Below, piece after piece: positions 445 to 23,628 of a stretch of 27,485 nucleotides of DNA. Source of the DNA: Saccoglossus kowalevskii (Eukaryota > Hemichordata > Enteropneusta > Harrimaniidae); NCBI RefSeq assembly GCF_000003605.2, contig NW_003116948.1:437437-464921 (forward strand). The letters run 5' to 3'. Positions within the stretch are counted from its first letter, which is position 1. Every line of letters begins with the position of its first letter. The notes under the pieces are model-generated. The model saw nothing but the letters and a program-made list of their open reading frames with translations. It was not told the DNA's origin and did not search any database. A program made the translations under genes and the position numbers.

Positions 445-461
445 GAAAGTGAAATTGAAAC
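445..461 (+). promoter_or_regulatory. Perfect tandem IRF response element (GAAANNGAAANNGAAAC)
   Basis: With two flanking bases this is GCGAAAGTGAAATTGAAAC: three GAAA cores with exact 2-nt spacers, matching the IRF-E layout of vertebrate interferon promoters. No gene is recognisable nearby, so the target may lie left of the window. Confidence 0.55.
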
Positions 462-1106
462 GTTCTGGTCAATTGGCAGTCACTCGGGTGAGTAGTGTTT
501 TGGGTAAAAACAGTGATATCACGTAGCAACAGGAATAAAACGAGTTACAATTGATTGAGGCATTTGTGTAAGCAGTTATTCGTAACAATTTACAAGAAAC
601 TTACAACTCTTTTTATATGCTTTACTTGTTTTATCAAAACTATAGATTATCGTGGTTAAAAAACAAAGGCAGATGAAGAAAAAAAAAGATGAAAGATGAA
701 CCGCTATCTTCAAGCCTTCAGCGATACGAACGTCCGTTGCAATCACGGGTCATTTATGTCACCACCGGAAGTGTTAAAAAGCAATGTTTTCCATAGTCGG
801 AATAGTCGAAAAAAGAATAGCAAAAAGGCTGAAAAAAGGTATTTTTTTTCCGATTTTTCACCCGGAATGAAAGACGTAAACCAGTAACTGAAAAAAACAC
901 AACTACGATATGTTATTGTCAAAGACGTCAAAATTAAATCTAAGTATGTGGGGGATTCTCTCTCATCCAAATACAAAGGTATGGCAAGCATCTGAAAACA
1001 CGATGATATGCGAATAATTTGTATTGTGTTACATACGCCAGTCAACTACAAAAAACAAATTAGCCCAAAATGGCAACATGCATAAAGATCATATTCCAAG
1101 ACTTAA

Positions 1107-1263
1107 AGCGGGAGGGTCGCCACCTGCGCACGCGCGGGAAATGAGTACCAAGTGATGATAACAACACACGCTGAGAACGCAAAGGCTCATGGGTAGACGC
1201 TTGTTTGTAAACAATAACACGCTATGATCACCTGATGCATGCGTAGGTGACGACTCCCCCGCT
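1107..1263. mobile_element. TTAA-flanked MITE (piggyBac-like), family 2a
   Basis: 157 bp flanked by TTAA at both ends (1103-1106 and 1264-1267), with imperfect inverted ends of about 25-30 bp (AGCGGGAGGGTCGCCACCTG against AGCGGGGGAGTCGTCACCTA). TTAA target duplication is typical of piggyBac elements. There is no ORF, so it is non-autonomous. Confidence 0.7.
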
Positions 1264-2535
1264 TTAATTACTTACATGTTTTAAACTATGTTGTTACCTT
1301 AAATTTAAGGGGAATATTTAAGAAGAATGTGCCATGACATCAATGCAAAATACACATGTGTTAAAAAGCAATGGTTTATTTTCAAGTTTCGATCAATCGA
1401 TTGCGGCACAATATATCGACAAATCAGTTATCACAACACTTACATCCATGAAAAACTCTTGACTCACATGTGGTGCCCAGCATATAAAAATCTGTTAAAT
1501 GATCGAAAAACGTCCGTGTTATCATATTTATCCCCCAAGCACTCTGACGTCGCTTTATAACCTCAGTTTTGTCACTAGCTACATGCCCTGACATAGAAGA
1601 TAAATATGCAAATTTACCTCCTTCTTAAATATTGTAAACATTTGTGAAAGTAAAACTTGAATTAGAATTTGTTTCATCAATTTCCACACCTCCACAGCAG
1701 TAGGCGACATCCCCGATCCGTGGAATATAAATTCCCAAGATCAAGTCAGAAGAGATCCCCCTCGACATCGCGTCCACTATTCCGAGTATCATGGGTGCAT
1801 ATATAGATCAGGGGAACAGTAAACGCGATGAACCGCGAGATTTGAGCACTAATTAAGTGGCGAAACAAGTAGTGTGGTTCTCAACGAAACCTTGATAGCC
1901 GTTTTCGTCTGAGGTCTATTGACACGGCGGCACAGATACCTGCCCACGCGCTATTTGAGGTACAAAAGCATGTTTCGTGGCCCACTCGCTCTGAGCGAGA
2001 TATCGGCGGCCACTATTACAGACCATGCCATTTTAACATAAACTAGTTGATGATGACTTCATATATGGCAATGCTATATAAACAGGATGTGCTCTTCAAA
2101 GCATTCTGGCATCGCTTGTGGTCTCTATACCTTACTGTCGTATATTAGTTAGAATGATTGTTTTCCAAGAAGAAATAATTAATTGTTTTATTAATAAGTC
2201 CTTTTAGCGTGATAGCGGAAACCAACGGCGGTCACTCACGCAAGTATATTTTTTGTAAAACAAAAAAGAAGTCCCGGCTTTGCCACTCTATATATTAGTG
2301 TGCTTGCCAGTATTGTGTTTGTGTGTTGTCTTTGTTTTGTGTTTAGTGCTTTAGGCAAAGCACCACTTTGCATTGGTGTTTGGTCCTATTTTTTTAAATG
2401 AATAACATAGGATAGATAGTATGTAAGGTTTTATTTTATGTCATTTGAGTATGTGACAATTTGTTTTGTGACGTAATATTTTTTTGTTTTTAATGTGTCA
2501 TTTTCATACTGGCTTTGTTACAAATTTTCAGCTTT
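1264..2535. other. No gene seen
   Basis: Only short ORFs without recognisable domains. The right part (2280-2535) is T/G-rich. No repeat or RNA gene found. Confidence 0.6.
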
Positions 2536-3130
2536 TTTTATTGCCGTTAATTACTAATAACGATAATTCTTATGTATTTTCATTATTTCCATAATAGTAC
2601 TGGTTGCATGTCACTATCTGTGGCAGTGCTTAATACATTACAGTTATGCATATCAATTAGGTCACATGGCCAAATATGGACATCTGATATTTCATATCTC
2701 TGGTCAAATGTCTTCAATATAGTACTAGTTGCATGTCCTTATTTGTAATTGAGATATTACATTTATGCATATTAATGAGGTGACATGAATCCAGTTATAC
2801 AAAGTAGATAATTAATATGCATGGATTTCAACCCTGAAGTAATCAGTGGATAATCCAAAAGCAAAAGCATTGATTCATTTGGATTTGATGAGTGTTACTC
2901 ATGTAATCTGGGGAACACCCATAAATTGGTTAATGTATGCAAATTAAGTAATTAAGAATTGCAACCAGACGGAAACTAATCCGGTCTGCCCATCTCAGAC
3001 TATCTATGTATCAAGTTTCATTGAAATCTGTTGAACAGATCTTGAGAAAAAAAGTGAAAACGCCTAAAATTGGCCAATTAATATGCAAATTAGGTAATTA
3101 ATATGCACGGATTAAAAATCAAAACTATTC
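2536..3130. repeat. AT-rich interspersed repeat with internal repetition
   Basis: Internally repetitive DNA. TACTGGTTGCATGTC-like (about 2599) and TACTAGTTGCATGTC-like (about 2722) segments recur with a TTATGCATAT-AATTAGGT-CACATG block. The motif AATTAATATGCAAATTAG recurs in variants at about 2800, 2930 and 3080. No coding capacity. It looks like a decayed dispersed element of unknown class. Confidence 0.5.
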
Positions 3131-3572
3131 CAGTGTGTGTATTATCCCATAGCACCAATGTACCAGCAGTAACCACAACAATTAGTGCCTCTAGCGGCTG
3201 AGCTATTTCCGACAGAGGGTTTGAGTGTGTGTGTGGGAGGGGGGGGGGTATATCTATAAATCGTAAACCTTTTCGCGGTGTTTCTAAGACATAATAAATA
3301 TGGTGCTTTATGCTTCAAAATATATAGGCGACAAATGAGTTAATAATTAACTAACTGCAAACACCAGATCGATAGTTTGTAGGACATCAGAAATTCTTTT
3401 GTGATATGTCAGACTGAAATTCCAGTTAATCTTGTTATTGTTTAAAACGTCTGTGCAATTTCTCGGAATTGTTTGAATATGTCGTAGCTCGGCACTGTGG
3501 CCTTGAGACAGAAAACTTGTCAGGTCTGGGTCACGCCGCACTCACGCAAATGTTCTTAAAAATGATATGTGA

Positions 3573-3742
3573 TACTGTAAAATACTTCATATTTTCGCTG
3601 AGGGAATGATTCAGTGCAAAAAAAATCCAGTGAATATACCTGTTTTCTTATATTTTACATTCAACTCGTCAAAAATCAGTGAAAATAAATTCTATGCAAA
3701 ACACGCAATGTCTTTTCAGCGAAAATAAAGTAGTTTAAAGCA
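3573..3742. mobile_element. MITE family 3-like element, older
   Basis: Starts TACTGTAAAATACTTCATAT and contains the inverted pair TATTTTCGCTGA (from about 3591) and TCAGCGAAAATA (near 3717). The right end GTTTAAAGCA is a decayed mirror of TACTGTAAAA. It sits immediately next to the family 1 copy at 3770. Confidence 0.5.
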
Positions 3743-3769
3743 CTTCAGTCGCACCATCCCGTGTTCGTA

Positions 3770-4106
3770 TCTCGGGCGGACATTCGGGCATTTTTGTCGC
3801 CTGGCAACCATCACGGTGAAAACAAGAAAAACCGAAACTTTAAGAAAACTGTACTTGAGGAGTAGTTGAGTACCCTGAACAGTACAGTGTTACAAGATTA
3901 TCCCTACACGTGCAACATATATAAATTTGGTTGCTCAGAATTCTCATGAAGTTGAGTTTGTTCTGATTTCTCGACTTTAGCTATTTTCACCGGCTCTCCG
4001 ACCGTAGTCCCACAGCTGCTCGCACGGAGCCCATAGAAATACATGGTACAGTGGCGCGCGTCTTAGCAACGTGGTAGACGTCTTGTGACGTAGCTCCGTC
4101 CCGAGA
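3770..4106 (-). mobile_element. MITE family 1, copy 3, diverged
   Basis: A reverse-complement copy of the 17470 element with many substitutions. Matching landmarks include the TCTCGGGCGGACATTCGGGC end, CCTGGCAACC, CCCATAGAAATACATGGTAC and GTGACGTAGCTCCG. The divergence marks an older insertion than the two intronic copies. Confidence 0.75.
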
Positions 4107-4716
4107 TGTAATACGCATTGTTTGTTTACAAGAAATTAGAACACGCACTGCTCACGGCGCCTCGGCGTTTTATAATATTAACGAATTAAAAAAAAAAAAA
4201 GGTGTGTGTCTACTGGCGACGCATGTAGAAATACTGCAATAACCTCGTCGCCACTCGTGGTCGCTAAATATAGTACACAATGAAAAAAAAACTTGGCCAC
4301 TTGCCACATAATAATGAGTCAGTCCATGTGGAGGTGTGGGTGGACGAACTGAAAACGATTTGGATTGTTCCCCTGCACTAAAACCAATAAAGGTGATCTT
4401 CGCCCTCGGAGAGATGCGATCGTGTGCATATTTGATTAGTGTAATGAGTGGTTGATACTTTGCGTCAATGTCGAAAATTGAAATCCAGGGATCTATGGTA
4501 CTCTCTTTACTGGAACTATTTAAAAGCAGACATGAAATAAATATTCCATGTTGTGGTAATTTATTGCTAAGTGTGCAAACTAATTGAGCTGATTACTTCA
4601 AAACACACCCACTTTATAATAGAAATCGTGTTTTTTCTGGTATTGATAACGGTTGCATAATCTAATAGCGGTTACATGCAATTAGTGTGCAAATTAAACT
4701 ACTAATAAGATTATAT

Positions 4717-4786
<70 letters not shown>

Positions 4787-6202
4787 CCAACACGACCTTA
4801 CTTTTCGTTCGTGGTTTGCACACACGGGAACCAACAACCAGAGTTCTACTAGGTGAGACACCCCCGGGGGAGACCCAACGTGACCTAATATATAGACATA
4901 TGACAGGCATGTGTTTATTATTTATTCCGTATTCCGCAATGAGCCTGAAATAGATATAATGACAATTTAAGTCTTTGTTACCTCTTGAAAAAAATCTAAT
5001 CTAATGTAAAACTAACTATCACGTTTTCTAGGATCATAATTGCCACAGAGTCGCTATGATTCATACCCGTCTAATATGGGTATTCTTATTCACGTGACTC
5101 ATAATATGACTGTTGGGAAAATCCATGTTTATCACACATGGGGTTTGCAGTGCATGCTGGTCCTGTTTATTACTTTCCTTTACCCTGGCATTCTATAAAT
5201 AGCGTTACAGATGAGTTCTATTACCTCGAGGTGCACATGACGAATATGGGATCTGTAGTATCGTAGACTGAATAAACACGGATTAAGACGTCGCATTAAG
5301 GTCCGGTTTGGATTGTAGGGTTAGATACAGTTGCAAGACTGGGTGTAAATGCGTTCGGGCGATAGAAGGTCGCGCGTTAAATGTATAAATTGAAAGCTAT
5401 TTTAACATTTTTGATAAATTATCCTTAATATGATTTATTCACTATGTGGTTTAGGAATGTGCCTGTTTCGTTTGTTAATGTTTTGTTCGTAGAAAAGTCA
5501 TGCATATAGCGTCAACAATTAGTGTGCGGTAGCGTATAGTCGGTATAGAACTGGGTGAATGGCGTAGCAGAGGCGGCGGCACGACATTATGTATGAGGGT
5601 GCGAGATCTAAAATCTAGACACTCTGAAACGCTATTTCCTGTAATTTTAGAGCCAAATTTTGCTGACACAAAGCTTGATTTGGGGGAACGCTCCAAACAT
5701 TTTTTTTGGGTGGGCGACCTCTGACCTCTGACCCCCCGGTTCCGCCGCCACTTCGTAGTCATTAAAGGGACATACGCTGCGTTTTTCCGGCAATGTGATT
5801 GCTATACCACCATGTGTTTACCCGTTTGAACCACAAATGTAAATTTTAGCTCAGTATTTCATGAATTTATAAATATGGAAAAAAATGGTGAAAAACGCTG
5901 CATGAATATTCGAAGAAAAGTTCGACCACGATCGATATTGGCGTTTCTCGTCACGTCTGACATTAAACGTCATCGACTTGGCGTGCCACACAGAAGTAGA
6001 GTAAACGAGTAGAGTGTACTTATTCCTTATTTGTTTTATACCCATCTGAGCTTGAGCCCACATAAGAACGTTGACGACATATGGCTAGTCATAATGTTAT
6101 TTCTAGTGAACAAGTTGGCGATTTGCCAATTTTATAAAGTTACTATTGGTTTCCATCACAACGACATCTCAAAAACATGAGACGTGAGGTGGACAGTCAT
6201 TA
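4107..6202. other. No gene seen (contains (CAGA)n)
   Basis: Unique-looking AT-rich sequence with a poly-A run near 4188 and a GGCGACG/CGTCGCC inverted pair near 4213-4254. The reverse ORFs at 5475-5762 and 5851-6063 show no domain and look like chance. Confidence 0.6.
4718..4787. repeat. (CAGA)n microsatellite
   Basis: About 17 nearly perfect tetranucleotide units. The reverse-strand ORF of repeated SVCL residues is the translation of this tract, not a gene. Confidence 0.95.
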
Positions 6203-6326
6203 TACTTTAAGATACTTTATTTTAGCTTGAATTAATTTTCGCTGAAAAAAAAACTTTTTTTGGGTGTTTTGTATGGATCATCCATCATCCCTTCAGCGAA
6301 AATAGCAAAAATAAAGTTTTGACATT
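6203..6326. mobile_element. MITE family 3-like remnant
   Basis: Contains the exact 12-bp inverted pair ATTTTCGCTGAA (near 6235) and TTCAGCGAAAAT (near 6292), with TACTTTAA and CTTTATTTT at the left resembling decayed family 3 ends. Confidence 0.4.
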
Positions 6327-6559
6327 AGATCATCTTTTTCAGTTCTCTTAAATACTTATATCACCGAGTTCTATGGCAATGTATGAAAAAAGTGATTGCT
6401 GCATAAGATTTGACTTTTCTGTTTTTGTAGTACACGACCAATGTTGTTCACCGCTAACTGGCATCAAAAATGAACAGCTGAACACTGATTCGGGATCATG
6501 TATCATGTCCTTATAATACACGTATAATACAATTAATTTTAATTAATTTTATTTAATGT

Positions 6560-6692
6560 ATTTAATGTTATTTTTTTATTTTACTTCTTTTTTTCCCTTT
6601 TTTTTCTCTATACTTTATTGTACACTTTTGTCAAGATCCTAATAAGGATACGATTACAATAAAGATTATTATTATTATTATTATTATTATTA
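6560..6692 (+). repeat. Retroposon-like 3' tail ending in (ATT)n
   Basis: A T-rich stretch followed by ATTACAATAAAGATTATT and a pure ATT tract at about 6664-6691. A 3' end of AATAAAG plus an ATT microsatellite is typical of invertebrate LINE and SINE insertions. No reverse-transcriptase sequence precedes it, so it is at most a 5'-truncated copy. Confidence 0.4.
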
Positions 6693-7894
6693 CAAGTTCA
6701 AGTACATCCTAATGAATTGGCCGTGACGTACTAGGATGCAATAGATTGACCATACCCAATGAACTTGAACGAAGGGTTAGCGTCTTCCAGAGTAAATTTT
6801 TGATAAATATTTATAAATTATAACTGTGTATGAAATTCTATGTATATTAAACAACGTGGTAAAATTCATCGAAACGTATATACCGCGTGTTCAAATTATC
6901 ATAATGTCCATCTTCGGATTGTGAACTGTGTTTACCTGTATGCAACGCTGATTGGAACAACAGGGCCAAGGACGAGTTGTCTGGGGGGGGGGGTCTGACC
7001 TATGTATGACCCCATATTAAAAACATCGATTGTAGGTCATTATGTATATGAGCAAAGCTTTTCTGGTGTCTTTGATATAAGTATTGGGATTTGTCATCTT
7101 TATAAATATACGCAACGCCGTTACAACCCACGCCTTGGCCACTGAACACACACGTGACTACACCCACTGTATTTATTTTTCAGTCTGTTAAAAAACACTC
7201 AATATTCTCGTAACTGCGTTTGTGAATCCATAGAACAATCAGATTCGTAGTAGTCAATCGCTGCGTATATTTCAACTTAGGATACGCGGCATGGTGCTAA
7301 AAGGGGCATCCCCTGATATTAAATATACATCCCGTGCCAGGCTATCTTTTTTTTATTTAACCGCACCCACTCGTTAAATTCATTACCATGGAGTTTTGCT
7401 AGTAAAAGTAAAAAAAAAAAGTAAATAAACATGAAAATCGCCTTTACGTTATATTTTCGCGTGGGGGTATGTCACTAATAAGTAGACCGCTATGGCGATG
7501 ACTAACGTCTGAGACACGTCCTAGGCTATTAACGTTATTACATCATGACACCAGTGACCTAGCCTATTTTGTGCATGTCTGCGCTGGTGGGGTTGGTTTC
7601 CTAATCACAAAATGTCGTAGAAATCTTTGAACTTCGAAAAAGATTAATGTTGGTCTGTAAGTGTTTTTAAATCGTAAGAAATAAAATAGGCATGTGTTTA
7701 TGTGGCACTGAAGTAATCTTTGAATGTCATACTAGGTATTAATGAAAACAACATCATTGTCTACATGTCTGCCGATTAAACTTGGAGTTCACCGGAAACA
7801 ATGTCATTCTCTCTCTCTACTAAACGTAATGATATGCGTCGCTCTGACGTATTACTTAAAATAAAAGAATATGATTGGGGCCGCCCACATTTAC

Positions 7895-8010
7895 ATTTGC
7901 ATGTTCGGGGGAATCCCCGTCTGAAAAGCAGTATCCACCAATCAGGGTGCCCTCTTCAGTCACGTGATAATTACAAAACTGGGAATTCCCTGTTGTTCCG
8001 GGAATACCCC
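7895..8010. promoter_or_regulatory. NF-kappaB-type site cluster with octamer, CCAAT and E-box
   Basis: Within 116 bp: the octamer ATTTGCAT (7895-7902), palindromic GGGGAATCCCC (7908-7918), CCAAT (about 7938), the E-box CACGTG (7961-7966), palindromic GGGAATTCCC (7981-7990) and GGGAATACCCC (8000-8010, one mismatch to the 10-mer kappaB consensus). A further consensus site, GGGGCATCCC, begins at 7302. The block overlaps a 105-codon ORF (7801-8118) with no recognisable domain. It lies 5.3 kb upstream of gene A. Confidence 0.5.
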
Positions 8011-8099
8011 AGCGTTGAACAAAAGTGTCCATCCAGCTGCTTGGAGATCCCCAATCGCTATTTTAGCAGAACATTTAAAGGCAACTATTCACGTCTGCC

Positions 8100-8212
8100 A
8101 GCTTTTTCTCATTTCTAACCGAATTCTGTCGTAGTGAACTCTCAGTCACTGGATCTCAGAAGAGTGATTGAATATTTGCGCTGACTGTTGCTGTTGGACG
8201 TAGATATTACAA
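8100..8212 (+). other. Speculative non-coding first exon downstream of the kappaB cluster
   Basis: Downstream of the kappaB cluster there is a TTTAAAG at about 8074, TCAGT initiator-like sequence near 8142 and a splice donor ACAAG|GTAATA at 8213. Together these could form a distal 5' exon of gene A splicing to a CAG acceptor near 13258 or 13289. No transcript evidence exists in the sequence. Confidence 0.15.
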
Positions 8213-9613
8213 GGTAATAGTACAACGCATATATCAACATATAAACCTGTTTTAACATCACCGGCAGCGAGCGACGCGTACACAATCACACATATATACA
8301 CAAGTCGGTCCAAGTGGCGTTTAAATCGAAGGCGCCATGATGTTGAGACTGGGCGGGGTCTGCGAGTGTGTTGTTATCACACACGAACTAAACAAATCGA
8401 TTCGATGGTAACGTCTTTATCGTCTTTAAAAAAAAAAATGATATGCGAAAAAAAAAATATTAGTTTTGATGATCCTTCTTGGCAACAAGTTCACATAATT
8501 GGTATTTATGATGGCCATAGTGCCCCGGGGAAAAAACAGTATTAGTAATACAAGAATGGAGATATGAAGGTATTAGTACCAACGTGTATTGTGATATGTA
8601 GGCTTTCACAGAATGCTATTTTGCCGATAATCTTATATCACGAAGTACAATGTATATAAATTGAGGCGAGTCCATAAGACTTTGGAACTTTTGTTTGCGG
8701 TGTCGGGCCCGTGTCTGTCTTGGCTGCTGGTTATTTCATTATTTATATTCCACCTATGATTTTAGTAGAAATAAAATTATGCTTATCAAACCATTAGAAT
8801 GCTTCGGAGGTATTGTTAGTATTATTATTAATAATTATTTAATGAGGCCCTCCAACTTGAACATGGCAGTACTACCACAATGCATGTCAGTCACTACGTA
8901 CACAACTGCCTGCCGTGTAAGACTACTGGTATCAAGTGAAGATTTGTGTTATCCTGGATCAACAGTTCTAAAATTTTTCGTTAGCGAGACATAGTTGAAA
9001 ATATTATAAGTGTGTACATGGCCTAATTTGTCGTGCATCATTTTATTTTTTTAAAAATTTCTTGATTTTGAACCAAATAATTATAATTTTACACTGGCTA
9101 TAGGTCTAGTTCAACATTTGGTGGGAAAATATAACAATAATTTTGTGAAATTTATTTGACGAAATTTGACTTTGGTAAAGAGGTAATGGCGATAACCTGA
9201 TATCAACATGTACATGTATACGCACAGTCACCCCATTCACACATGTGATACGTATTGTTACCATATACTTCCTCTTTAACAGCACGTTTGCTATAAATTC
9301 ACAGTTGTAAATATATCAGCACGCCATTGCCTATTTAGATGGCGATGATAACTGATTTTTGCATATTTGTTCTACCAGTTCCCTATTATATTATACCCGA
9401 ATATATGGCCACGATTCACAAAGTTGGCCAATTGCCAAACATACAAACATACGGGATATTTGGGTCGACTTCAATGTATTTATTCAATAATAATTTGTTC
9501 GTTTCACCCAATAACAGTAGTCACCGCTTACTACAGTCGTACTATGTGAGTGATTGTAACAAACTTTCTTCTTCTTCTTCTAAAAAAAAAATCAATCCGC
9601 GTTGATTGATTAT
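8213..9613. other. No gene seen
   Basis: ORFs at 8695-8994 and 9339-9605 have no recognised family and no convincing splice context. A short CTT tract lies near 9566. Confidence 0.6.
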
Positions 9614-9617
9614 TTAA

Positions 9618-9742
9618 AGGGCGGCAGTCGTCGTGCCGCGTCCTGTTAGATATGGGACTCACAGCGACGTATACAACGCGTGTAAAATACATTATTTATT
9701 TACATGAAATTCGAACACGCGCTTCGCGACGACCACCACGCT
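9618..9742 (+). mobile_element. TTAA-flanked MITE (piggyBac-like), family 2b copy 1
   Basis: 125 bp with TTAA on both sides and inverted ends AGGGCGGCAGTCGTCG and AGCGTGGTGGTCGTCG (the latter on the opposite strand). The interior includes TGTAAAATACATT. An inverted copy of identical length is at 22270-22394. Confidence 0.75.
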
Positions 9743-10506
9743 TTAATATTCAGTAGTAAGTATATTGAATTCGAGAAGCGCAGAAACTGTGTTTCATATT
9801 AGTGCACGCTCGTTCAGTTGTGTTTACATCACGATACTCCACCGAGGCAGTACCACAGTGTGTGTGACTTGACCAAGTGTTAGTCAATGATGATTTAGAA
9901 CACTACCACAAAACCCCTTCACCCCGACCCGATACTATAGCGTGTGATACACGTGAAAAGACGCCAAATCCCAACTCCAATAGACTCAGCCATATCTCCA
10001 CGCTTAAAACAAACTAAAAGAAAATAATAATGCCGATTACATTTTACCCGCACTACAGGGTCGCTAATGGAAATAAATCGTTTCCCGGAAGTCCTGACTA
10101 CCTGGGATTCACGTATTGATTTCAACTCGCCGGCTGTTGTTTTCTTTAATCATGAAAGAGCGTAGTCGAATTAAGCCGCTTCGTAAGCATCGGCTGTTTC
10201 CGGTGATATTCGGAGCTATTTATCATTAGCACCAGTTGCATCGTGCTGATAAAAAGTGACTCGGCGATATAGTGCGAATCAGTTTGTTTATAAAATTCTA
10301 ATGTTTGACCTCAACTATTTGAGCGCCAATGTCAATTTTGTTTACTATTCACAAAATTTAATACCACAAAACTGATGAATTATGTTTATCAGTGCGGTCT
10401 AAAATTAACAAAGAAATTCAAGAAAAATACTAGCACCCAAATATATGTAATGCATCATTTTTTGGCGAGCAAAATTATGGGGTATAAGGTGTAATAAAGT
10501 ACAATA

Positions 10507-10531
10507 ATTTTATTTTATTTTATTTTATTCG
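10507..10531. repeat. (TTTTA)n microsatellite
   Basis: About five pentanucleotide units in an otherwise featureless stretch. Confidence 0.85.
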
Positions 10532-10980
10532 TTCGTGTCTTACTTATTCTGGGGCGGAAACCCAGATGTGCTCGTGAAATGTTCAATCTTCTTACGATTA
10601 CGTAACGTGGTCGTGAATGGCGATAACATAATTAAATAGTGTAATATTTCTTGTTAATTGTGGGGCGTGATCGGGAGAAACCTGCGAAGGAAACAACTAC
10701 TAGAATTTTTAATAACTCAAAAAAAATGACGTCTATTGTACTGTGAATGTATGTGTAGTGAAATCAAAGCTATAGATCGACTGCACTCAAGTATTCGGAG
10801 ACAATTTGTCTTAAACAGAAACTTGAAACACCTGTTTTCCAATAAGAAACCGCTATATTTGTTCTTGGAAATCATCGGATGGGTCAACTAAAGTCAGATA
10901 ATAAATAGGCGTCAAAACTGTTTTCACTAAGTCCCATTGCTTGCTGTCATTGATGGTGTAGATACCGTTTTTGTTTTGTG

Positions 10981-11024
10981 TGGCTGTGTCGCGAGGAGTG
11001 TGTGTGGCTGTATCGCGAGGAGTG
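10981..11024. repeat. Short tandem duplication, 24-bp period
   Basis: TGGCTGTGTCGCGAGGAGTG at 10981 and TGGCTGTATCGCGAGGAGTG at 11005, one mismatch over 20 bp. It explains the repeated residues in the reverse-strand ORF here. Confidence 0.8.
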
Positions 11025-13290: not shown

Positions 13291-13446
13291 ATGTCGCACG
13301 TTCCGTACCATGAGATGGACACGCATACCAAGTGTAATATGTATAACAACTACGCAGTACCTATGGATAAGTATTACTACTCATGCCAGCATCAACAACA
13401 ACGGCAACAATATTATGAGCAATTCACCTATCCGCCGCTTCCTATG
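13291..13446 (+). CDS. IRF: IRF gene A exon 1: Tyr/Gln-rich N-terminus
   Basis: This exon encodes 52 residues beginning [10 protein letters not shown], with 9 tyrosines (including YYY at 28-30) and a Gln-rich patch at 33-44. The ATG has G at -3, and an in-frame TGA lies upstream at 13243. The donor is ATG|GTCAGC, weaker than the consensus. Splicing to 13770 is phase 0 and joins two compositionally similar segments (PPLPM then [10 protein letters not shown]), which supports the link. It is also possible that exon 1 is not used and translation starts at the ATG at 13827. Further non-coding exons upstream cannot be excluded. Confidence 0.7.
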
Positions 13447-16400
13447 GTCAGCTTTAGCTTCTTTTTACATTAAGAAAAAAAAGCAATAACGCAAACTGTC
13501 GTGCAATTGACACTGTACCTTGTTTAGTAGTTTAATGGTTCTTAGGGGTAGTGTACAGTTCCGTATTTTGTTCTTTCTTTATTTATTTATTGTGTTGCGT
13601 GTCTGCTATTTTGCATATTTACAATGCGATTCCTTTTTTTCTCAAACCCTGGACAAATCTGTATGAACCTACAGTTCTGTAGATAACGATGACTCACGCA
13701 CGACGGGCAGTACTTTAACTTCATGATGCAGTCGCAATAATCTCCCCCCTTCTCTGTCTTTCCTTACAGTACTCCTCACAGGCTAGCTACAACGGAGATC
13801 ATTTCTTAAAACAACCGCCTTTCAGAATGCTATCTGAAATAACAACAGCTTCTACAAACCCGTCTGGACGGCAGCGAATGCGTCCCTGGCTTATTGACCA
13901 AATTAGCAGCGGGAATTACAGAGGACTGGCGTGGTTGAATGAAGAAAAAACAATGTTTAAAATTCCGTGGAAACATGCAGGAAAACAAGACTATGACAAG
14001 GAAGAGGACCCAAAAATTTTCAAGGTAAACCCCAATATATATATATATATATATATATGGATTGTTTATTTTCACGACAATGCATCTGAAATTAAATTTC
14101 ACGAACGGTGAGTTAGGAATCGGTTTTTAATTTATTCACGACTACCACAATGATTTAATTATCTGAATAATGGAGCGTGGCAGCAGTTGTGTGAGTCGAT
14201 TCGTGACACAAGGCGGATGAAGAGTTCACACATGGTTTACATTTACTTTTTCTAAGTTTACGGAGCTCGTTCATCAATACAAATATCACGACGGGGTGGA
14301 GAGCCAAGTGTGGGGGAAAGGATGGGGTAGAAGTAATGCTGGCGTCCTTTTCATGTAACTTTCTGAGAGTAAGTTAAACTGTATTGTGATAGCCGTGAAT
14401 TGAAGCTGTCACGGGTAGTAAAGGCACGAAGACCAACGTTCAAGAATGACGCTGCCCGGAGATCAGATACGACTGTGTGTTATTGTGTCTCGTGATGCGG
14501 TATGACAATTTGTGTTCGCTGTCTGGCAGCGTGTTATTACGTTTCTCCAGCCATGCTAATACATGGTACGATTCCACGCGTCGCCGTCATTCAGCAACAG
14601 ACATTTAATACCACCATCCTATTAAACAGGGTCACTATGATATTGATGCGTACGATACACAAACGCCATGAAATAACAACCGCCTGTGTTTCGTTTTGTG
14701 CGTAGGTAATCACTTTCATTGACAAAAAACCCACGGCAGTATTGGTATTGTGCGATTAATATGAATAAGCACGAGGTCATTATTCATCTAGCTTCCTTGG
14801 AAGTTGGATGTGCCCAAATGTGCCACCAATCTCCACGACCTCCTGAACCCAGCCGGCTTCAAGTCAGAACCCCGGACACGACACAGCAATAGCGTATATT
14901 TCAGTGTACTTGGGAATATTAAATTACGTTATATTGCATGAGTTACTCAAGTAGTCGTTGAAACTGATCCATGGGCAGCGGTACGAGTATACATATGTGG
15001 CTTGACATTATTTGACAGTTGGACTCGATGAATTACAAAATAATGTCGACATTCGACAAATATTAAAGTTTAAGTCATGTGCACATATTTGTTCACGCAA
15101 ACTTCTTGATGTCAAACAATGGCCCGATTCAAACGAGCACTTCCTCTAAATCTCGATTTGCCAGTGGTGAAGAAGGTCTGGCCACCTGCCAATATATAGC
15201 GCCATCTCATCCCCGCTTACGTGCTTCGCGGCGAAAAAGGGATGTAATAATGCAAATGAAATTTATTTATTTATTCATTTAATATGCTACTCTAAAACAT
15301 GATTGTATCGAGAAACGCCACTGTTGGAAAGTTAGTAGCAATTGAGACAGATGATGATACCATATTTGTGTGCTGACTTGTCATATGAGTCCTGTTACTG
15401 TTTAAGTTTTAGATGTACGCCCCTCCCCCGGCATTATACATAGGGTAGGGCTATTGGTCATGTTACGAACATCACTAAAATACAAACTTGCCGTACGAGG
15501 CATGCCATCCCGATCAAATGCGGTGTTTAAACAAAACCAACATTGATCATTCTCGACGGATTTGAATAATTGTTTTTCTGGATTAAAGTCAAGCCCTGTA
15601 TTATATCCATGAACGTTTCAGTGTTACAAATGTTGGTAGATTTCCTTTTTCTCAATTTAAGTATTTAAATAAATATAAACATAATACTGGACTGTTGTCT
15701 TCATTGTCTGCAATATAAATGATGGCATGCGTTGTTATTGCTGTTGTCTGTCTCTCATAGGCTTGGTCGCTGCACACCGGCAAGTATCGGGAAGGTGTCG
15801 ATGACCCTGATCCTGCCATGTGGAAAACGCGACTACGCACTGCTTTGAATAAACTGCCGGACATACAGGAAGTGCAAGAGAAGACGCAACTGGATATCCC
15901 GGAACCGTATAGAGTGTACCGACTGTTACCAAAGAAACGTAAGTTTGTAATTATAGGGGATCAGAGTTGTTGACGTCATTATATAACGTCACGGTGTTGC
16001 TGCCGTCCATGATACAGACTGAGTACAAGCATGGACGTGTTGAAAACAGATGCGCGTGAACATATTTCAGAAGATGTATGTGATTGAGAAATCGTCATAA
16101 ATTACACAATTTACGCCATGTGTGTTCGTGAACACACTTACACAGGACTCTCGATCGCTATCTCAATGATAAGCGATTTAAGTCGAGGATTGCGGTCAAT
16201 TCCTACTTAATGCTGTTGTTCTGCAGTTAAATGAATCTTTCGAAAATTGAAAATGATGGTACATGATATTTTCAAAAATAAAACCATCTGCTTGGGCTTG
16301 TTACTTCAGATACAAATGACGTTTCCAGCCGACCCTCCGTCGAAGGTGTTTTTTGTACTTATAAAAAGGGGAACGACTTTTTCAGAAATTAAAAGTAGAA

Positions 16401-18427
16401 CGAATGGAGTAATTCATTTCAATGAGGTGTTTGTCCTTTCCTTCAAGCACTTCGTAAATCATATTCATCAAGGTTTTTACGGCGGAAGTGGCATGTGTCA
16501 AACTAATGAACGCTACTTCATTTGCGAATAGCGCCCTCGCGGCGGGGGATGGGTGTTCATCGTTCAACACAAAAAGGTCAAATCATAGTCTTCATTACAA
16601 ATTTCCGGATATCCAATAATTTTCCCAAAGGCCGAATCTTCACTCCCGGAATTCAGAAGTCCATGATTACCCAATACATCGTATGCGTAGAGAGATAAAC
16701 ATCATCAATTTTCAATACTAACTTTTACATTTTGTTCTTACCCCTATGTCCATGAACACCAGTGTTTGGTCTGTAACGATCTTCCTGACTGTAAATCATT
16801 TTGTTTTTCAGAAACGCTTCGGGATGCCAAGGCCACGGTTAAACAGGTATGTACCATTCCATTTCTGGGAAGATCAACTTTCTTTTAAAATTGTTTATAC
16901 GATTTAAAAGTAATATGGCACATACATCATTGGTGATACCGTTTATAAGGGTCAAGTTTTCCAGTGACGAATCTCTTCTCTGACGTCAGAATGACGTAGC
17001 TAGGGTATAGCAATGTAGTATTTTTCATTATTTAGAATTTAACACAGTTCTAGAAAACAGTATTTGTTATTGGCTATATATATATATATATTGATCTTAA
17101 AATCGTCTCTTACACCCACTTACAACTCATTTGGGTTTCTAAGAACCGTGGCAGTGTACATGTAATAACATGTTTACGGCCATACGATATGCGATGATAT
17201 GTCGACATTGTGATTGCAAACGTTGAGTCTGTCGGTGAGGGCGCAGTTCCACGTCACCCATTTCGTAATTTTTTTTTTAAAGGAATGCTCCTATATTCCT
17301 GGACATAATCCTGCGTTATCCCTTCCAATGACCAACAGAAGTACAAGTACTGAAGGGTACTTCAATCTGGGTAAGTCTAGTACTCAAAACACTGACTAAA
17401 ACGATAATAGCTCAGTTCAAAAACATGAATGTAAATGACTTTCAAGTTAGGGTTGCAGATAACTTGTTATCCTCGGGGGCGGAGCTACGTCACGGACGTT
17501 CTACGTTGCTAAGACGCGCACCACTGTACCACGTATTTCTATGGGGCTTTGTGCGCGCTGCTGTGGAACGCCGTGGAGCCGGTGAAAACTCGAGAAAACA
17601 ACACAAACTCAACTTTGAAGTAATCCTGAACAACCAAATTCATATATGTTACACACGTAGGGCTAATCTTGTTACACTGTTCAGGGGACTCTCAACAACC
17701 ATCGCAAAGTACCGTTTTCTGCGAGTTTTTGGTCTTTGTTTTCACCGCGAGGGTTGCCAGGCGGTAGAAAATGCCCGGATGTCCGCCCCTGAGGATAGAA
17801 CATTGTCTGGATAACAACTGGTTTGAACTTTGTTCTATGACAGAAAAATAACGTTCACACACATTTTCATTTTATACATTGAGAAGGAAATGGTTAGAAA
17901 ATAAAGATAAGATTAAAAGTCATTTTTGCGACACTAACCTTTCTTGGAGTATTCTGTGGAACTTGACGTGACATTAGAGAAAAAAAAAATGAATCCACTT
18001 ATGAACATGAAAGTCATCATTAATGAATCAGACAACAACAATACCAACACTGACAACAACGATAGCAACAACAGGTGACTGTCGCAGATCCTTCTTGAGT
18101 GAATAGTAATTTATTTGTATTGAAAAAAAAAACACAGAATGATACATGTCAAATATAAACTGATTTGATCTTATTTGATTGGTTTCAGTTATCAGTCCCA
18201 CATCTACAAGTTCTACTACTTTGAGTCTTCCACAAGCATTAGAAGACCTGGACGGAATTATTCAGAGTGATCTGGGGGCTGCGAGTGATTCACCAACGGC
18301 AACGACTAGATCAATGTCATGGTCAACGTCATCTCCGGGTATTTACACGTTATGAATATATGTTTAATACAAATGGATTTCCGATAATCTAAACTAATGA
18401 TATCTCTCATGAACTTGTATAATCTAT

Positions 18428-18505
<78 letters not shown>

Positions 18506-20922
18506 TATTTTATCATCACTCTTTGAGAACGAATCCATTTTCTATGTCTGCTCGTACATATGTGTAAACTCTAGTTAAACTCCAGATGGCGCTGTCATAC
18601 ACGCAGTTTCATGGACAATTGTTACCTTTCTCACCTTACTTGGAGACTGTGGCTGAGCAAGGGCGCCCTCTCGGAGTTGAAGACCACACGACATTCCTTT
18701 TGTTTTTATTTACTTTAGTGGGGGACAGTCGGTGAATTGATCTTTGCTATTACTAACTATGCCCCTCTTTGTGTCACTAGATTCAACTCAGAACTTCGAC
18801 TGTTGGGAAGAGAGTATCGACGACAACAATAACTCACCATCAAGCATAACAGCAAACTTTGGTACCCCGCAGAGAAATGCCTTCAAACGTCAACTCTGTG
18901 ACAGTAACTATGACTATGGGATGATGATGGCAACACCAATCAAGAAAGTCAAACTGGAATCACACTATTCGCATTTTTCCAGTCCTGACTCGGATGGGAA
19001 TGATTGTGACGACCGCTCGCTATATACGATGAACAACTGCAACCGAATGATAGGTCATCATGACCCACCAGGTACGTCATGTCGGTTGGTTACCATAGTA
19101 ATTTCAGACATTCCACGTTGATATGTGTTTGATTTCCCACGTTTTGCACCATGCCCTTTATCAGCCTACATTCTCCATTCAACCGTCTCAACATTACGCA
19201 ATTCATTCACCTGTTAGCTAGCACATGTAGGTGGCGCAGTCCAGCCCACATAAGCCCAAATAACTGTATAATAATACAGTAATCCTCGGGGGCGGAGCTA
19301 CGTCACAGACGTTCTACGTTGCTAAGACGCGCACCACTGTACCACGTATTTCTATGGGCTTTGTGTGCGCTGCTGTGGAACCCCGGTGTTGCCGGTGAAA
19401 ACTCGAGAAAATAACACAAACTCAACTTTGAAGTAATCCTGAACAACCAAATTCATATATGTTACACACGTAGAGCTAATCGTATTACACTGTTCAGGGA
19501 CTCTCAACAACCATCGCAAAGTACCGTTTTCTGCGAGTTTTTGGTCTTTGTTTTCACCGCGAGGGTTGCCAGGCGGTAGAAAATGCCCGGAGTGCTGTGA
19601 TCGGTACTGACGGAAATATCTTTGGTTATGTGGGACGTAACTGGACACATTGTGTTGGCAGCAAACCATTAACATGATGTTATTAGATGAAACAATAAAA
19701 ACCGCCAGTACACACAATCTTTGATTTTTCTGTATAGATTACGATAACGAATTCCCCGCCGTGTTTATCAAAGTGCACCGTCTGCCAAATAAAATTATTT
19801 AAACATGGTGTTCTCGCCTTATTAAAAAACGGATTTTTGGAGAAGATGCTGATTAGAGCACCAAGCTTGACACACACCTTTGATAACGTTTTTTTTTCTC
19901 TTTTTTTGTTTGTTATAACTCACAGTGCATTATATGCAAGTGAAAATTAGCTACAGAGCTGTCACTGCGTGTGAGTATCGCGTTGTAGCCCCTGGCGGAT
20001 TCCTGCTGACCAACAGTGGTAACAGCGATACACCTAACCAGAATACGCTCATTGATAACATAGTATTCCCTGACTGTACGAAGTGGAGCACGAGTCCCAA
20101 ACAGACCCAGTTGACCTCGACTCTTCTCGGTCACGTCGAAGGAGGGTAAGTTCAATTTTTGTGGTAAAAGTTTGTCGTCTACTCTCACTTTGGCAGTTTT
20201 CTGAAGGCACTGTTATTATTTGACATGCTTGGCAATAGAAGTATTTTCGTTTAGTCATTCATATTTGATATTCGAATGAGTAATCAAAATGTTGGTCTTG
20301 AACGTTGCGTTTAATTGTACACAATTGCTTCTGAAACTAAAATAATGGGTATACAATATGATTTGACTTGAATATGTGATTAATTAACTATTGGGCTATC
20401 TTGAAAAGATTTCATGCGAATTTTCATTTTCATTGAATATTCAGAATTCTGGTCGAAAGCTGTGATGGAGACGTTTATGCTACTAGGAACTGTCGGACCG
20501 TATTCTTCTGGAACACCTCCGCCCCGTCCGAAGAACCACGACGCTTACCACGCAATGAACGAGTCAAGCTTTTTGACTATGGACAGTTCAAAAAGGAGAT
20601 CAACATGCATCTACAGAACGGTGGTCCTAAACCGTCTTTGCCTCACATTTTCTTCGGCGTCGGGCAGAGATGGGATCTCCTCTGCCCATTGCGGAATAAC
20701 CTCATTTCCGTCACCGTGACGCCACTGAAGGCACTCGAAGAACGAATGATCCTAAATGCTTCGTCGCTGGGGGTGATGATGCCTGTGCCACAACACCAGA
20801 GTCCTGAACATGATGTCCAAACCATGGACGATTTTGAACTCATGCCGGACAGTTCGGGTTCTAATGATTTGAATTCGTTTGAGATGGTAGTAGCTAAGGC
20901 CCTGCAGACGTGCAACGCATAG
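13291..20922 (+). CDS. IRF: IRF gene A: interferon regulatory factor, IRF4/8-like, complete nine-exon gene
   Basis: Joined exons are 13291-13446, 13770-14024, 15761-15938, 16812-16846, 17283-17370, 18189-18338, 18781-19071, 19926-20145 and 20445-20922, giving 616 residues plus TAG. All junctions are GT/AG and phase-consistent (phases 0,0,1,0,1,1,1,2). Residues 1-85 are a Tyr/Gln-rich extension. Residues 86-196 are the IRF winged-helix DNA-binding domain with its tryptophan pentad W92, W107, W119, W139, W158. Residues 197-384 are a Ser/Thr/Asn/Asp-rich linker. Residues 385-560 are the IRF association domain, followed by a 56-residue tail. The segments [18 protein letters not shown] and QLDI-PYRVYR resemble vertebrate IRF4/IRF8 as I know them. 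By family knowledge it is a nuclear transcription factor binding GAAA-core sites and pairing through the association domain. The start is the first ATG after an in-frame TGA at 13243. Exon 1 is the least certain part; gene identity is near certain. Confidence 0.93.
13770..14024 (+). CDS. IRF: IRF gene A exon 2: first half of DNA-binding domain
   Basis: Residues 53-137. The acceptor is TCTTTCCTTACAG and the donor AAG|GTAAAC. The exon carries the first three tryptophans of the IRF pentad (RPW at 92, LAW at 107, IPWKH at 119) and ends at KIFK. By family knowledge, vertebrate IRF genes also break near this point, just before the AW motif. The reading frame stays open upstream of the ATG at 13827 to the acceptor, adding 19 residues that continue the Tyr/Gln-rich segment. 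An (AT)n tract begins about 10 nt after the donor. Confidence 0.95.
14025..15760 (+). other. IRF gene A intron 2 (1.7 kb)
   Basis: The largest intron of gene A, splitting the DNA-binding domain. It opens with an (AT)n tract at about 14034-14058. I see no exon-like, RNA-gene or transposon structure in the rest. The short ORFs near 14502 and 15079 lack IRF-like sequence and bordering splice signals. Confidence 0.8.
14034..14058. repeat. (AT)n next to the exon 2 donor
   Basis: About 12 AT units beginning roughly 10 nt downstream of the exon 2 splice donor of gene A. Confidence 0.9.
15761..15938 (+). CDS. IRF: IRF gene A exon 3: second half of DNA-binding domain
   Basis: Residues 138 to the first base of codon 197. 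It starts AWSLHTGKY and carries W139 and W158, completing the pentad. The recognition helix reads [11 protein letters not shown], followed by [15 protein letters not shown], the usual end of an IRF DNA-binding domain. The acceptor is TCTCTCATAG and the donor C|GTAAGT. The residue equivalent to human IRF4 Cys99 is threonine here (residue 164). Confidence 0.96.
16812..16846 (+). CDS. IRF: IRF gene A exon 4: micro-exon in the linker
   Basis: A 35-nt exon between TTGTTTTTCAG and CAG|GTATGT. It completes codon 197 (C|AA, Gln) and adds [11 protein letters not shown], keeping the frame exactly between exons 3 and 5. It is too short to stand as an ORF; support comes from two good splice signals and frame compatibility on both sides. 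Confidence 0.85.
17283..17370 (+). CDS. IRF: IRF gene A exon 5: linker
   Basis: An 88-nt exon after a T-rich tract ending AAAG, with donor G|GTAAGT. It adds residues 209-237 ([10 protein letters not shown] to GYFNL) plus the first base of codon 238. There is no recognised domain; the sequence is Ser/Thr/Asn-rich like the variable linker of other IRFs. Confidence 0.85.
17470..17795 (+). mobile_element. MITE family 1, copy 1 (intron 5 of gene A), intact ends
   Basis: 326 bp bounded by matching inverted ends (TCCTCGGGGGCGGA at the left; the right end reads TCCTCAGGGGCGGA on the other strand) and flanked by TA on both sides, as with Tc1/mariner-type target sites. It has no coding capacity: the 129-codon ORF across it is a by-product. 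A near-identical copy is at 19283 and a diverged copy at 3770. Confidence 0.8.
18189..18338 (+). CDS. IRF: IRF gene A exon 6: Ser/Thr-rich linker
   Basis: A 150-nt exon between TTGGTTTCAG and G|GTATTT, phase 1 at both ends. Residues 238-287 are rich in Ser and Thr ([19 protein letters not shown]) with an acidic stretch [10 protein letters not shown]. By analogy with other IRFs this is a likely activation or phosphoregulatory segment; that role is inference. Confidence 0.87.
18430..18505. repeat. (TA)n microsatellite in gene A intron 6
   Basis: About 38 uninterrupted TA units, a likely length-polymorphic and possibly cruciform-forming tract between exons 6 and 7. Confidence 0.95.
18781..19071 (+). 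CDS. IRF: IRF gene A exon 7: linker with basic/SUMO-like motif
   Basis: A 291-nt exon, residues 288-384 plus one base. The intron before it has a textbook branch-point TACTAAC at 18751 and acceptor GTCACTAG; the donor is G|GTACGT. The protein is Asp/Asn/Ser-rich with one basic patch, PIKKVKLE (340-347). V344-K345-L346-E347 fits the SUMO acceptor consensus (hydrophobic-K-x-E), and the KKVK run could add nuclear targeting. Both are pattern matches only. Confidence 0.92.
19283..19591 (+). mobile_element. MITE family 1, copy 2 (intron 7 of gene A), right end lost
   Basis: Nearly identical to 17470-17780 over about 310 bp, from TCCTCGGGGGCGGAGC through the ATGCCCGGA segment. The right terminal inverted repeat is missing. 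It has the same orientation as copy 1 within the same gene. Confidence 0.8.
19926..20145 (+). CDS. IRF: IRF gene A exon 8: start of IRF association domain
   Basis: Residues 386-457, starting [10 protein letters not shown]. It carries the expected beta-strand pattern (VKISYR, then a PGG turn, then NIVFPDC, then TLLGHVEGG) of the SMAD/FHA-like IRF association domain. The acceptor is AACTCACAG and the donor GG|GTAAGT. The break after LGHVEGG matches the family's L-x-H-L-E-x-G segment. Confidence 0.95.
20445..20922 (+). CDS. IRF: IRF gene A exon 9: rest of association domain, C-terminus and stop
   Basis: Residues 459-616 and TAG at 20920-20922. It begins [16 protein letters not shown] and contains [21 protein letters not shown] and [11 protein letters not shown], all recognisable association-domain landmarks (compare KLFDxxxF and the FGxxW region of vertebrate IRFs). 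The domain ends near residue 560. The last 56 residues are acidic/Ser-rich ([16 protein letters not shown]) and could be an autoregulatory or activation tail; that is inference. Overlapping ORFs on both strands here are shadows. Confidence 0.96.
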
Positions 20923-21718
20923 AACACAAAAAAGTCTCGGTTCAAAGCAGCTTGCCAATAATATGTTACTTGAGTGCGATGACACCGTACCTAAAACAAC
21001 TTTCACAACCGTGAACGGGAAACTCTGGTCGCATATAAGTGTGTATCGGACTACTGCCAATATATATCTTCCTTTTTTAAAATAGACTTCATTTATTTTC
21101 ATATGCTGATCATTGTGCTATTCACCACATAGTTACTGATATATATATATATATAACTTGAGTTGTACAAAGTGATAACATTTATGTTAAATTTTTTGTT
21201 TTGACTTCGTCTGTGGGCGGGTGTGAAACACTACATCGCCAAGATTATTGACACGACAGCGCCACCTGCGACATTTTAGAGGAACTTTATGATGACGTGC
21301 TAAAACGATCATTGGTTGGCTGGTTGGCCAGAGTTTTCAATACTTTGTTAAGCCTTCATTCAAAATGACTTAGAAAATGCGGCTTCTATAACCACAAACA
21401 CTCCACCATAGTGGGAGTAATAAAAAAAAAGCGGAAAAAATGTTGCGTAAGTCGGATTCCTTCATTTGATATTTACCGACAAATATTATTTATACATACA
21501 GTATTTTCAAACTTGATGAAATTACGACTAGTAGAAAAGAAAGGACTAATTGTGGCTCAGTTAGAGTGTCGGTATCTTGTATTTATGTCATGATTGCCTA
21601 CTCTAGCTCCTACAACGTTATATGTACTAATGGTCTGGCATCCACTTTGACACAACATTCTCCCGAGTAGTTCATCTCGGAAGAGTCAACTTGCTACTAG
21701 AATCTGTTGACAAATAAA
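20923..21718 (+). other. IRF gene A 3' untranslated region with candidate poly(A) signal
   Basis: After the stop, the first AATAAA is at 21419-21424, inside an A-run. A cleaner one is at 21713-21718, in CAAATAAAAG, which would give a 3' UTR of about 0.8 kb. An (AT)n tract lies at about 21141-21154. Which signal is used cannot be decided from sequence. Confidence 0.4.
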
Positions 21719-22269
21719 AGATTTGGAAGTAGTAATTCCATTCGCTGGGTAAACCCGTCCGATTACTTTTAAATACCATAATTCATGTTGTGATTTTCGA
21801 AACAAAATTAATTAATGTTTAGTTGATTTCATTGAAAGATTAGTCGAACTTACTACGGTACACATGACATTGCGGAATCCGTATCCGTATTTTATTTGTT
21901 ATCTCGGCACTATGTGGATTCATATGTGATCTTACGGCAAATGAAAGTGTGAGCAAAATCAATCAAACTTCAGACCGCAACTCAAGCGAATATATGTACA
22001 CACATTATTATCTGAATAAATAAGATAAGACAATTTCTCTATATAATGCATAGTTTTAAAGTTATTGCATATCTTCTCAAAAACGATGTATACAACAAAG
22101 CAGTATAATGCATTCACTTGAGGATAGGTAGTGGTGGAAAGACTGATTTTTCTCACTTTTATTTTCGATAGAATTCAGAGATACGTGCCGAGATAGAACA
22201 AAATATCATCATACGTATACAACCTGCCATAGTTACACCAAATCATTCAAGTAAATAACTAAGATTAGA

Positions 22270-22394
22270 AGCGCGGTGGTCGTCGCGCAGCGCATGTTCG
22301 AATTTCATGTAAATAAACAATGTATTTTACACGCGCTGTGTACGTCGCTATGAGTCCCATATCGAACATGACGCGGCACGACGACTGCCGCCCT
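22270..22394 (-). mobile_element. TTAA-flanked MITE (piggyBac-like), family 2b copy 2
   Basis: The reverse complement of 9618-9742, also 125 bp, with about 10 substitutions by eye. TTAA is intact at 22395-22398; the other flank has decayed (TTAGA). It lies between genes A and B. Confidence 0.75.
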
Positions 22395-23035
22395 TTAAAC
22401 TTGGCCTCTATAATTTGAACGAAATATCCTTAAGATAGACAAGTCCCCTTTAAATACCGGTTGACAAGTTAAAACACAACGTATAACTCATTTCGAATGT
22501 CATTAGATTTATCTTTACTGGAGATGGTCAGAGTAAATTGTACACAAACTTGAAAATTTCCAGTAGACAACTTAGTATTTTCAAAATAGAATTTGTATTT
22601 GTTTTTGTTATTTCCATAGTTGAATATTTGAATTTATACTTCTTCAGAAATAAATGAATGTTTCTCCTAATTAGTAATCTTGTTATGATATTTGTTATAA
22701 GGCCTGTTCTCGGTCTGGTCAGTGATTCAAAATAATTTAGCAGTCACACCTGTTTTCATACGTGTATTTTTTGTGTACGTGTCAATGTTCTGTGTGTCGT
22801 TGCCCCGTAGTAAATTCTGTATAGTAGCATTCAATTTGTCTACATCCTTTCACATCGGCCATATCGAGTCACTGGATAGGAATGTCCGAGATTGTTGCTT
22901 TCATTTTAGGTGCCCAAGTCTACAAAAGTGCGCCCTCACACTGACCCTTGACTTGTTTATTGAGAGCCTGCAGGCTTACGTCGCTGACTGGGGGTCACCC
23001 GAGGACGACTTAATCATCTTACCACTATACTAGAC

Positions 23036-23069
23036 ATGCTAGACATCGTCCAAGGAATGTATCGGAAAG
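23036..23069 (+). CDS. IRF: IRF gene B candidate upstream coding exon
   Basis: An ATG at 23036 (G at -3) opens MLDIVQGMYRK and reaches a strong donor AAAG|GTGAGT at 23070. Spliced to the acceptor before 24416, the frame continues exactly (G|GC ACA ATG ACT) into the gene B ORF. It would add 13 residues before the Met at 24421. A chance in-frame match is about 1 in 3, and a non-coding first exon ending at 23628 is a competing model. Confidence 0.35.
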
Positions 23070-23289
23070 GTGAGTGATTTCATTTCAAATGAAAACACCT
23101 GGCAACTCTTACACACTCTGGTCGCCGTTGAATGTTAGCGACTGACATGGCAATATGTAATTTCAGAGGCATGTGGAGGTGCAATGCGCTTGCCAGTCGG
23201 AATCGGTGTGTGCGTGTGTGATCCGTCGACACTTTTAAAAAACACACATTCTGTATGTGTGGGCAGTCTCATTCATAATGCCTTTCACT

Positions 23290-23628
23290 CGCGATACACT
23301 CGTAGTTTCGATTTCATTTTCGCTATAGTAAACGTCTTGAACTTGTGACAGTTGTTGCCTGATACGCGCGATTTCGAAGGGTCCGAATGTATCGCTGTGC
23401 TACGCGCAAATTAGTTTGTCGTCTGAAACGTTTCGAAACCGGGAGTACTGAGAGCAAGTCAAGGCTATCGCTTTCAAGTTTCAGTCTCTCGCCTTGAAAA
23501 CATCCTGTTTGTACCTCGTGATAGCGCTGTATCTAGGCCATGTTCTAACTTTTGCTACCCCCATTTGCGGATCTATTCTTTTGTACCCAACTTTTATAAC
23601 CGCCTCGTGTCGGATCGGGTGATTTTTG
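23290..23628 (+). promoter_or_regulatory. Candidate promoter / first non-coding exon of IRF gene B
   Basis: A CpG-dense island in AT-rich surroundings. It holds a perfect triple-GAAA IRF element on the minus strand (23305-23321), an alternating GAAAC-GTTTC-GAAAC block (23425-23439) and a TTTATAAC at about 23593. It ends in a strong donor, TTTTTG|GTGAGTAAAG, at 23629. Splicing this donor to 24416 would make a non-coding 5' exon directly joined to the gene B ATG exon. The transcription start is not defined. Confidence 0.4.
23305..23321 (-). promoter_or_regulatory. Perfect tandem IRF response element (GAAANNGAAANNGAAAC)
   Basis: Read on the minus strand, with two flanking bases, this is GCGAAAATGAAATCGAAAC: three GAAA cores at exact 2-nt spacing, ending GAAAC. 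This is the canonical ISRE/IRF-E layout. It is 1.1 kb upstream of the gene B ATG exon and about 2.4 kb downstream of the gene A stop. Confidence 0.6.

Follow-up and report, generated by a model that had tools for sequence, protein, structure and literature searches.

The 27,485-base stretch of the Saccoglossus kowalevskii genome analysed here (contig NW_003116948.1, positions 437,437 to 464,921; hereafter the window) carries two sites of the interferon-stimulated response element (ISRE) type, each with three GAAA cores. Site 1 lies near the left edge, and site 2 lies between two predicted genes of the interferon regulatory factor (IRF) family, named gene A and gene B below (Table 1). The two sites are a real, non-random motif pair, of the kind of element to be expected and in a fitting place. 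Together with sites of the NF-κB (kB) type, they probably belong to regulatory DNA through which NF-κB and IRF proteins would control the tandem IRF gene pair.

Sequence and rarity of the two sites

Both strands of the window were scanned with GCGAAARTGAAATYGAAAC, up to three mismatches being allowed, and exactly two places match, each with 0 mismatches, against a mean of 0.05 and a maximum of 1 in shuffled sequences. The two sites share the same base at 17 of 19 positions, and at five of the seven positions outside the GAAA cores. The pattern search confirms the coordinates, strands and 17-of-19 agreement given in the initial annotation of this DNA, as well as the exact 2-nt spacing of the three cores at both sites. 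The further claim that the sites bracket the locus is a loose one: it is gene A that they flank, while site 2 falls between the two genes and gene B continues past the right-hand end of the window.

The triple array GAAANNGAAANNGAAA, meaning three GAAA cores at 2-nt spacing, occurs in the window at sites 1 and 2 and at no other place. Markov models of order 0-3 (150 sequences each) predict 0-0.02 triples by chance and 0-0.0067 triples with a final C, while the GAAA and GAAAC frequencies of the window itself give 0.0038 of the latter, close to the value of about 0.002 that had been estimated at the outset. In 300 dinucleotide-shuffled sequences triples averaged 0.013, and in 100 such sequences the average was 0.00 for GAAANNGAAANNGAAAC, which has two matches in the window. 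When the GAAANN unit was permuted and searched in the real sequence, 51 of 60 orderings returned no triple, the true order with its trivial shifts returned 2, and every other ordering returned at most 1.

GAAA-rich DNA might nonetheless happen to carry two triples that have no function. The pattern was picked post hoc, and simple GAAANNGAAA pairs are just mildly in excess (six in the window, four of them within sites 1 and 2, against 1.8-2.8 expected), which weakens the description of the elements as perfect. Other tetramers also give single triples: on the + strand, five non-AT entries reach three copies at 2-nt spacing (TTCT, CAAC, GTCA, TTTG and TTGT), with the TTTG and TTGT triples overlapping and the five lying partly in microsatellite or low-complexity DNA. 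Chance is still quite improbable as an explanation, given the number of triples against the expectation above, the agreement of the two sites outside their cores, and the independent finding of two predicted IRF genes in this window.

A common origin of the sites as copies of one repeat was also considered and rejected within the window. The 619-bp regions around sites 1 and 2 (the 19-mer plus 300 bp per side) share no alignment better than one of 10 bp (E 0.28). When compared with the whole window, each region finds its own place and otherwise only weak matches outside the 19-mer (site 1, E 0.014 and 0.59; site 2, E 0.004 and 0.59). No repeat match covers either 19-mer among the repeats listed (20 of the 26 direct families and 25 of the 127 inverted pairs of the window) and the flank alignments. 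Since the flanks are unrelated and the 19-mers lie outside the repeat matches, sites 1 and 2 do not appear, within the window, to be copies of one repeat.

The IRF genes and the surroundings of site 2

Gene A was assembled from exons placed by eye at splice signals, and its spliced frame is open. The predicted protein has an IRF DNA-binding domain (PF00605, aa 88-192, E 1.7e-40) and an IRF association domain (PF10401, aa 387-554, E 7.2e-28), which together place it in the IRF family; the nearest solved structures to both domains are those of IRF4. Its recognition helix, encoded in the exon at 15761-15938, retains the Arg and Asn of the IRF4 sequence WKTRLRCALNK and has Thr in place of the human IRF4 Cys in this DNA-contact helix, a residue that we take to be C99. 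The DNA-contact residues reported for IRF1 are Arg82, Cys83, Asn86 and Ser87 (PMC7819612), and their mapping onto gene A is our own. A comparison of the gene A DNA-binding domain with viral contigs gave three pattern matches, none of which was confirmed.

Several repeats surround or interrupt gene A. Two direct copies at 17466-17779 and 19279-19591, with identity reaching 100% over 95 nt, lie in its introns, and a third, inverted and more diverged copy lies upstream of the gene at 3884-4072; this family is probably a mobile element. An inverted repeat of 131 nt, 93% complementary, stands on either side of the gene at 9613-9743 and 22269-22399, with its arms 12.5 kb apart.

The gene B exon ends in KIFK at phase 0, the same junction as that of gene A exon 2, and 36 of 52 residues are identical to the matching piece of the gene A exon. 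It covers the first half of PF00605 (profile positions 1-49 of 105), and nothing corresponding to the remainder was found in the window. Ranked by total score, the solved structures that match it best are an IRF7/IRF3 fusion construct, which aligns in two stretches, and then IRF4. Downstream of this exon, 25395-27485 holds copies, both tandem and dispersed, of a repeat about 150 nt long, with a 157-nt period at 27201-27485.

Site 2 lies 2,383 bp past the stop codon of gene A and 1,098 bp ahead of the start codon of gene B. It opens one of the two 200-bp stretches of the window that are most dense in GAAA and TTTC (Table 1), a joint maximum. This stretch and that at 23700-23899 are rich in CpG, the latter with an observed-to-expected (o/e) ratio of 1.68, against 1.03 for the window as a whole; vertebrate genomes, by comparison, are CpG-depleted. 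A donor-like GTGAGT occurs 306 bp downstream of site 2 at 23629 and a second one on its upstream side at 23070, while the start codon of gene B follows an acceptor-like CAG. A non-coding first exon near 23629 is plausible. With its distance from the start codon and its CpG- and GAAA-rich setting, site 2 could plausibly sit in the promoter region of gene B, as had been proposed initially.

Table 1. Positions of the sites, genes and related features in the window.
Feature	Position	Strand	Basis or detail
Site 1, IRF/ISRE-type element, triple GAAA, GCGAAAGTGAAATTGAAAC	443..461	+	pattern search and chance models
Site 2, IRF/ISRE-type element, triple GAAA, GCGAAAATGAAATCGAAAC	23305..23323	-	pattern search and chance models
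kB-type site GGGAAATTCC, 60 bp upstream of site 1	374..383		GGGRNNYYCC match
Donor-like GTGAGT, 26 bases downstream of site 1	488..493	+	one of 9 on + strand; sequence
Cluster of four kB-type sites (7908, 7981, 8001, 8043), 145 bp, upstream of gene A	7908..8052		shuffles
Gene A, complete IRF gene model, 9 coding exons, 616 aa	13291..20922	+	open spliced frame, Pfam
Gene A exons 1-5	13291-13446, 13770-14024, 15761-15938, 16812-16846, 17283-17370	+	
Gene A exons 6-9	18189-18338, 18781-19071, 19926-20145, 20445-20922	+	
GAAA/TTTC-dense stretch, putative gene B promoter	23301..23500		10 per 200 bp; CpG o/e 1.62-1.79 (1.6-1.8)
Gene B, first IRF-domain coding exon, 66 aa	24421..24618	+	PF00605, E 6.4e-18

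kB sites and the surroundings of site 1

NF-κB sites follow the consensus GGGRNNYYCC, which is present at eight places in the window against 1.1 ± 1.1 in 300 shuffles. Half of these places form the cluster upstream of gene A; four sites within 150 bp were seen in none of the 300 shuffles, and no shuffle had more than two. The kB sites, far above chance as they are, were absent from the initial annotation. Following the cluster, a TATA-like ATTTAAA near 8073 and a donor-like AAG/GTAATA near 8213 were recognized by eye, which point to a possible 5′ non-coding exon. These signals suggest that 7908-8052 may be the promoter of gene A, for which it may be a better candidate than site 1. A sequence resembling a gamma-activated sequence (GAS), TTCCGGGAA, at 7996 overlaps one of the clustered kB sites.

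Site 1, for its part, might serve a different gene with a promoter at the left edge of the window, in which case sites 1 and 2 would not be a pair. Its remoteness from gene A (12,830 bp to the start codon) and the closer position of the kB cluster speak for such an arrangement, whereas no Pfam match (E 0.1) was found in the ten open reading frames scanned, from 54 listed outside gene A and with two of them left of position 1,046, although this result leaves room for a gene beyond the edge. We regard a separate left-edge gene as rather unlikely, if less so than chance. At gathering scores, Rfam gave no matches in the window, nor did a tRNA/tmRNA search.

Factors that might bind the sites

Human electrophoretic mobility shift assays (EMSA) offer a guide to the factors that might read such sites. 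In these assays IRF4 by itself was confined to ISRE probes in which N1 and N3 were both G or C; BLIMP1 required a G at one of the two positions, and IRF1 bound every one of the 16 variants (PMC13307996). The N1/N3 bases in the four GAAA pairs of sites 1 and 2 are G/T, T/C, A/T and T/C. By this rule BLIMP1 would suit one pair, which is in site 1, and IRF1-type binding would be allowed for three pairs, the fourth having N2 = C and thus standing outside the probe set.

The sites could accordingly be functional and yet be read by a Blimp-1/PRDM1-type repressor at site 1, or by an IRF1/2-type factor at both, instead of by the products of genes A and B. The spacing GAAA-GT-GAAA-T of site 1 fits the repressor, and in site 2 neither N1 nor N3 is a G. 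However, the probes had two cores with N2 fixed as T and the proteins were human, no triple being among the probes (PMC13307996). Furthermore, the Thr of gene A in place of the IRF4 Cys means that the preference of its product may differ. We think it improbable that another factor accounts for the sites.

Proposed control and the points against it

The preferred explanation remains control of the tandem IRF gene pair by NF-κB and IRF proteins. From the arrangement described above, we infer the binding, its target genes, the direction of its effect and the kind of protein involved as follows. Site 2 would most likely be part of the promoter of gene B, and site 1, with the kB site nearby, would most likely be part of a distal promoter or enhancer that serves either gene A or some gene further left, outside what is seen here. 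Infection signals would bring NF-κB to the kB sites and IRF-family proteins to the triple sites, and the bound proteins would raise IRF transcription in a feed-forward or feedback manner. This suggests an ordinary feedback control of immune regulators. The IRF interpretation made initially is thus partly supported: the sites are of IRF type, both nearby genes encode IRF domains and site 2 sits in a plausible promoter of gene B, whereas auto- or cross-regulation would be a further step.

Several observations weigh against this explanation. The usual partner sites of IRF4 and IRF8 are the Ets-IRF composite element (EICE, GGAANNGAAA) and the AP1-IRF composite element (AICE, TGASTCA plus GAAA at a set spacing), and neither pattern has a match in the window; an IRF-Ets composite sequence (IECS)-like GAAANNNGGAA has one, at 24324 (-). 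The choice of motif was, as noted, made after the fact, and the distance of site 1 from the gene A start codon is large. Site 2 shares its GAAA density with 25681-25880 and its GAAAC density with 10651-10870. There is no strict kB site within 1 kb of site 2, and a single relaxed match (22991) in 22301-24420. In a control with 40 column-permuted palindrome patterns, the close kB variant GGGNRYNCCC ranked top (five sites, three clustered), but five sites were also counted for an unrelated pattern, without clustering, and GGGRNNYCCC, the strict palindrome, came third by count with three sites (two clustered); the clustering is therefore the stronger part of the kB evidence.

The match to published ISRE definitions is likewise divided. 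The description of the elements as perfect agrees with the broad wording of two or more GAAA repeats (PMC7819612), which sites 1 and 2 satisfy with their three cores at 2-nt spacing. It does not agree with RRAAANNGAAAYY, the strict consensus given in PMC6242948, to which none of the four GAAA pairs is exact (1, 2, 1 and 1 mismatches), and the only three exact matches in the window lie elsewhere, at 3827 (+), 4473 (+) and 15639 (-). The unusual feature is thus the triple array and not the strict consensus. Moreover, N1 and N3 are not both G or C in any of the four pairs, and by the EMSA rule (PMC13307996) these pairs are unsuited to human IRF4 alone. Control by the product of gene A itself is the weak step of the proposed explanation. 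Autoregulation may nevertheless occur, because the EMSA rule comes from two-core probes and human proteins and because gene A carries the Thr.

Despite these points, the motif observation is well supported and the type of target is the expected one. A bolder scheme, which we consider doubtful, would join a kB-ISRE module upstream with an ISRE promoter between tandem IRF4-like genes, such that NF-κB starts gene A and IRFs lock both genes on. Such a circuit would be independent of interferon, which the animal may lack, and would predate its vertebrate counterpart. Provided that the two sites are bound, they would in any case offer short, mutable sequences for testing how such feedback arose.

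Comparison with known systems

A literature search did not turn up an ISRE in an invertebrate IRF promoter, with most subscription journals outside its coverage and the absence therefore unproven. Non-vertebrate IRFs that activate ISRE reporters are known, however: oyster CgIRF2 and CgIRF8 do so (PMC5557890), and a shrimp IRF acts through the ISRE of Vago4, with EMSA on an ISRE from the shrimp's own genome (PMC4602278). The targets there were human reporter promoters or the Vago gene, not IRF genes.

The interferon-beta enhanceosome, in which IRF3/7 act with NF-κB and AP1 (PMC6242948), resembles site 1 in having IRF and kB sites close together. It differs in that no AP1 site lies within 900 bp of site 1 (the nearest is at 1460), the spacing is not compact and the target is not a cytokine gene. 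Vertebrate IRF1 is controlled by NF-κB and STAT1 (PMC7819612; PMC6242948) and offers a likeness in the kB control of an IRF gene, although in the present case the gene downstream of the kB sites is IRF4-like and the sites themselves were recognized by sequence alone.

The vertebrate STAT1, STAT2 and IRF9 genes are controlled by ISGF3/IRF1 through an ISRE, or an ISRE and a GAS (PMC5985295). Like the pair proposed here, these genes for ISRE-binding factors themselves carry ISREs, which may be proximal, distal (-5.5 kb) or intronic, and autoregulation or positive feedback has been proposed for them. The elements listed for them are mostly two-core and several are accompanied by a GAS, whereas those in S. 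kowalevskii are triple, have a kB neighbour at one site and are described from their sequence alone. If the sites are bound, IRF genes outside the vertebrates would be under IRF and NF-κB control, much as the vertebrate IRF and STAT genes are.

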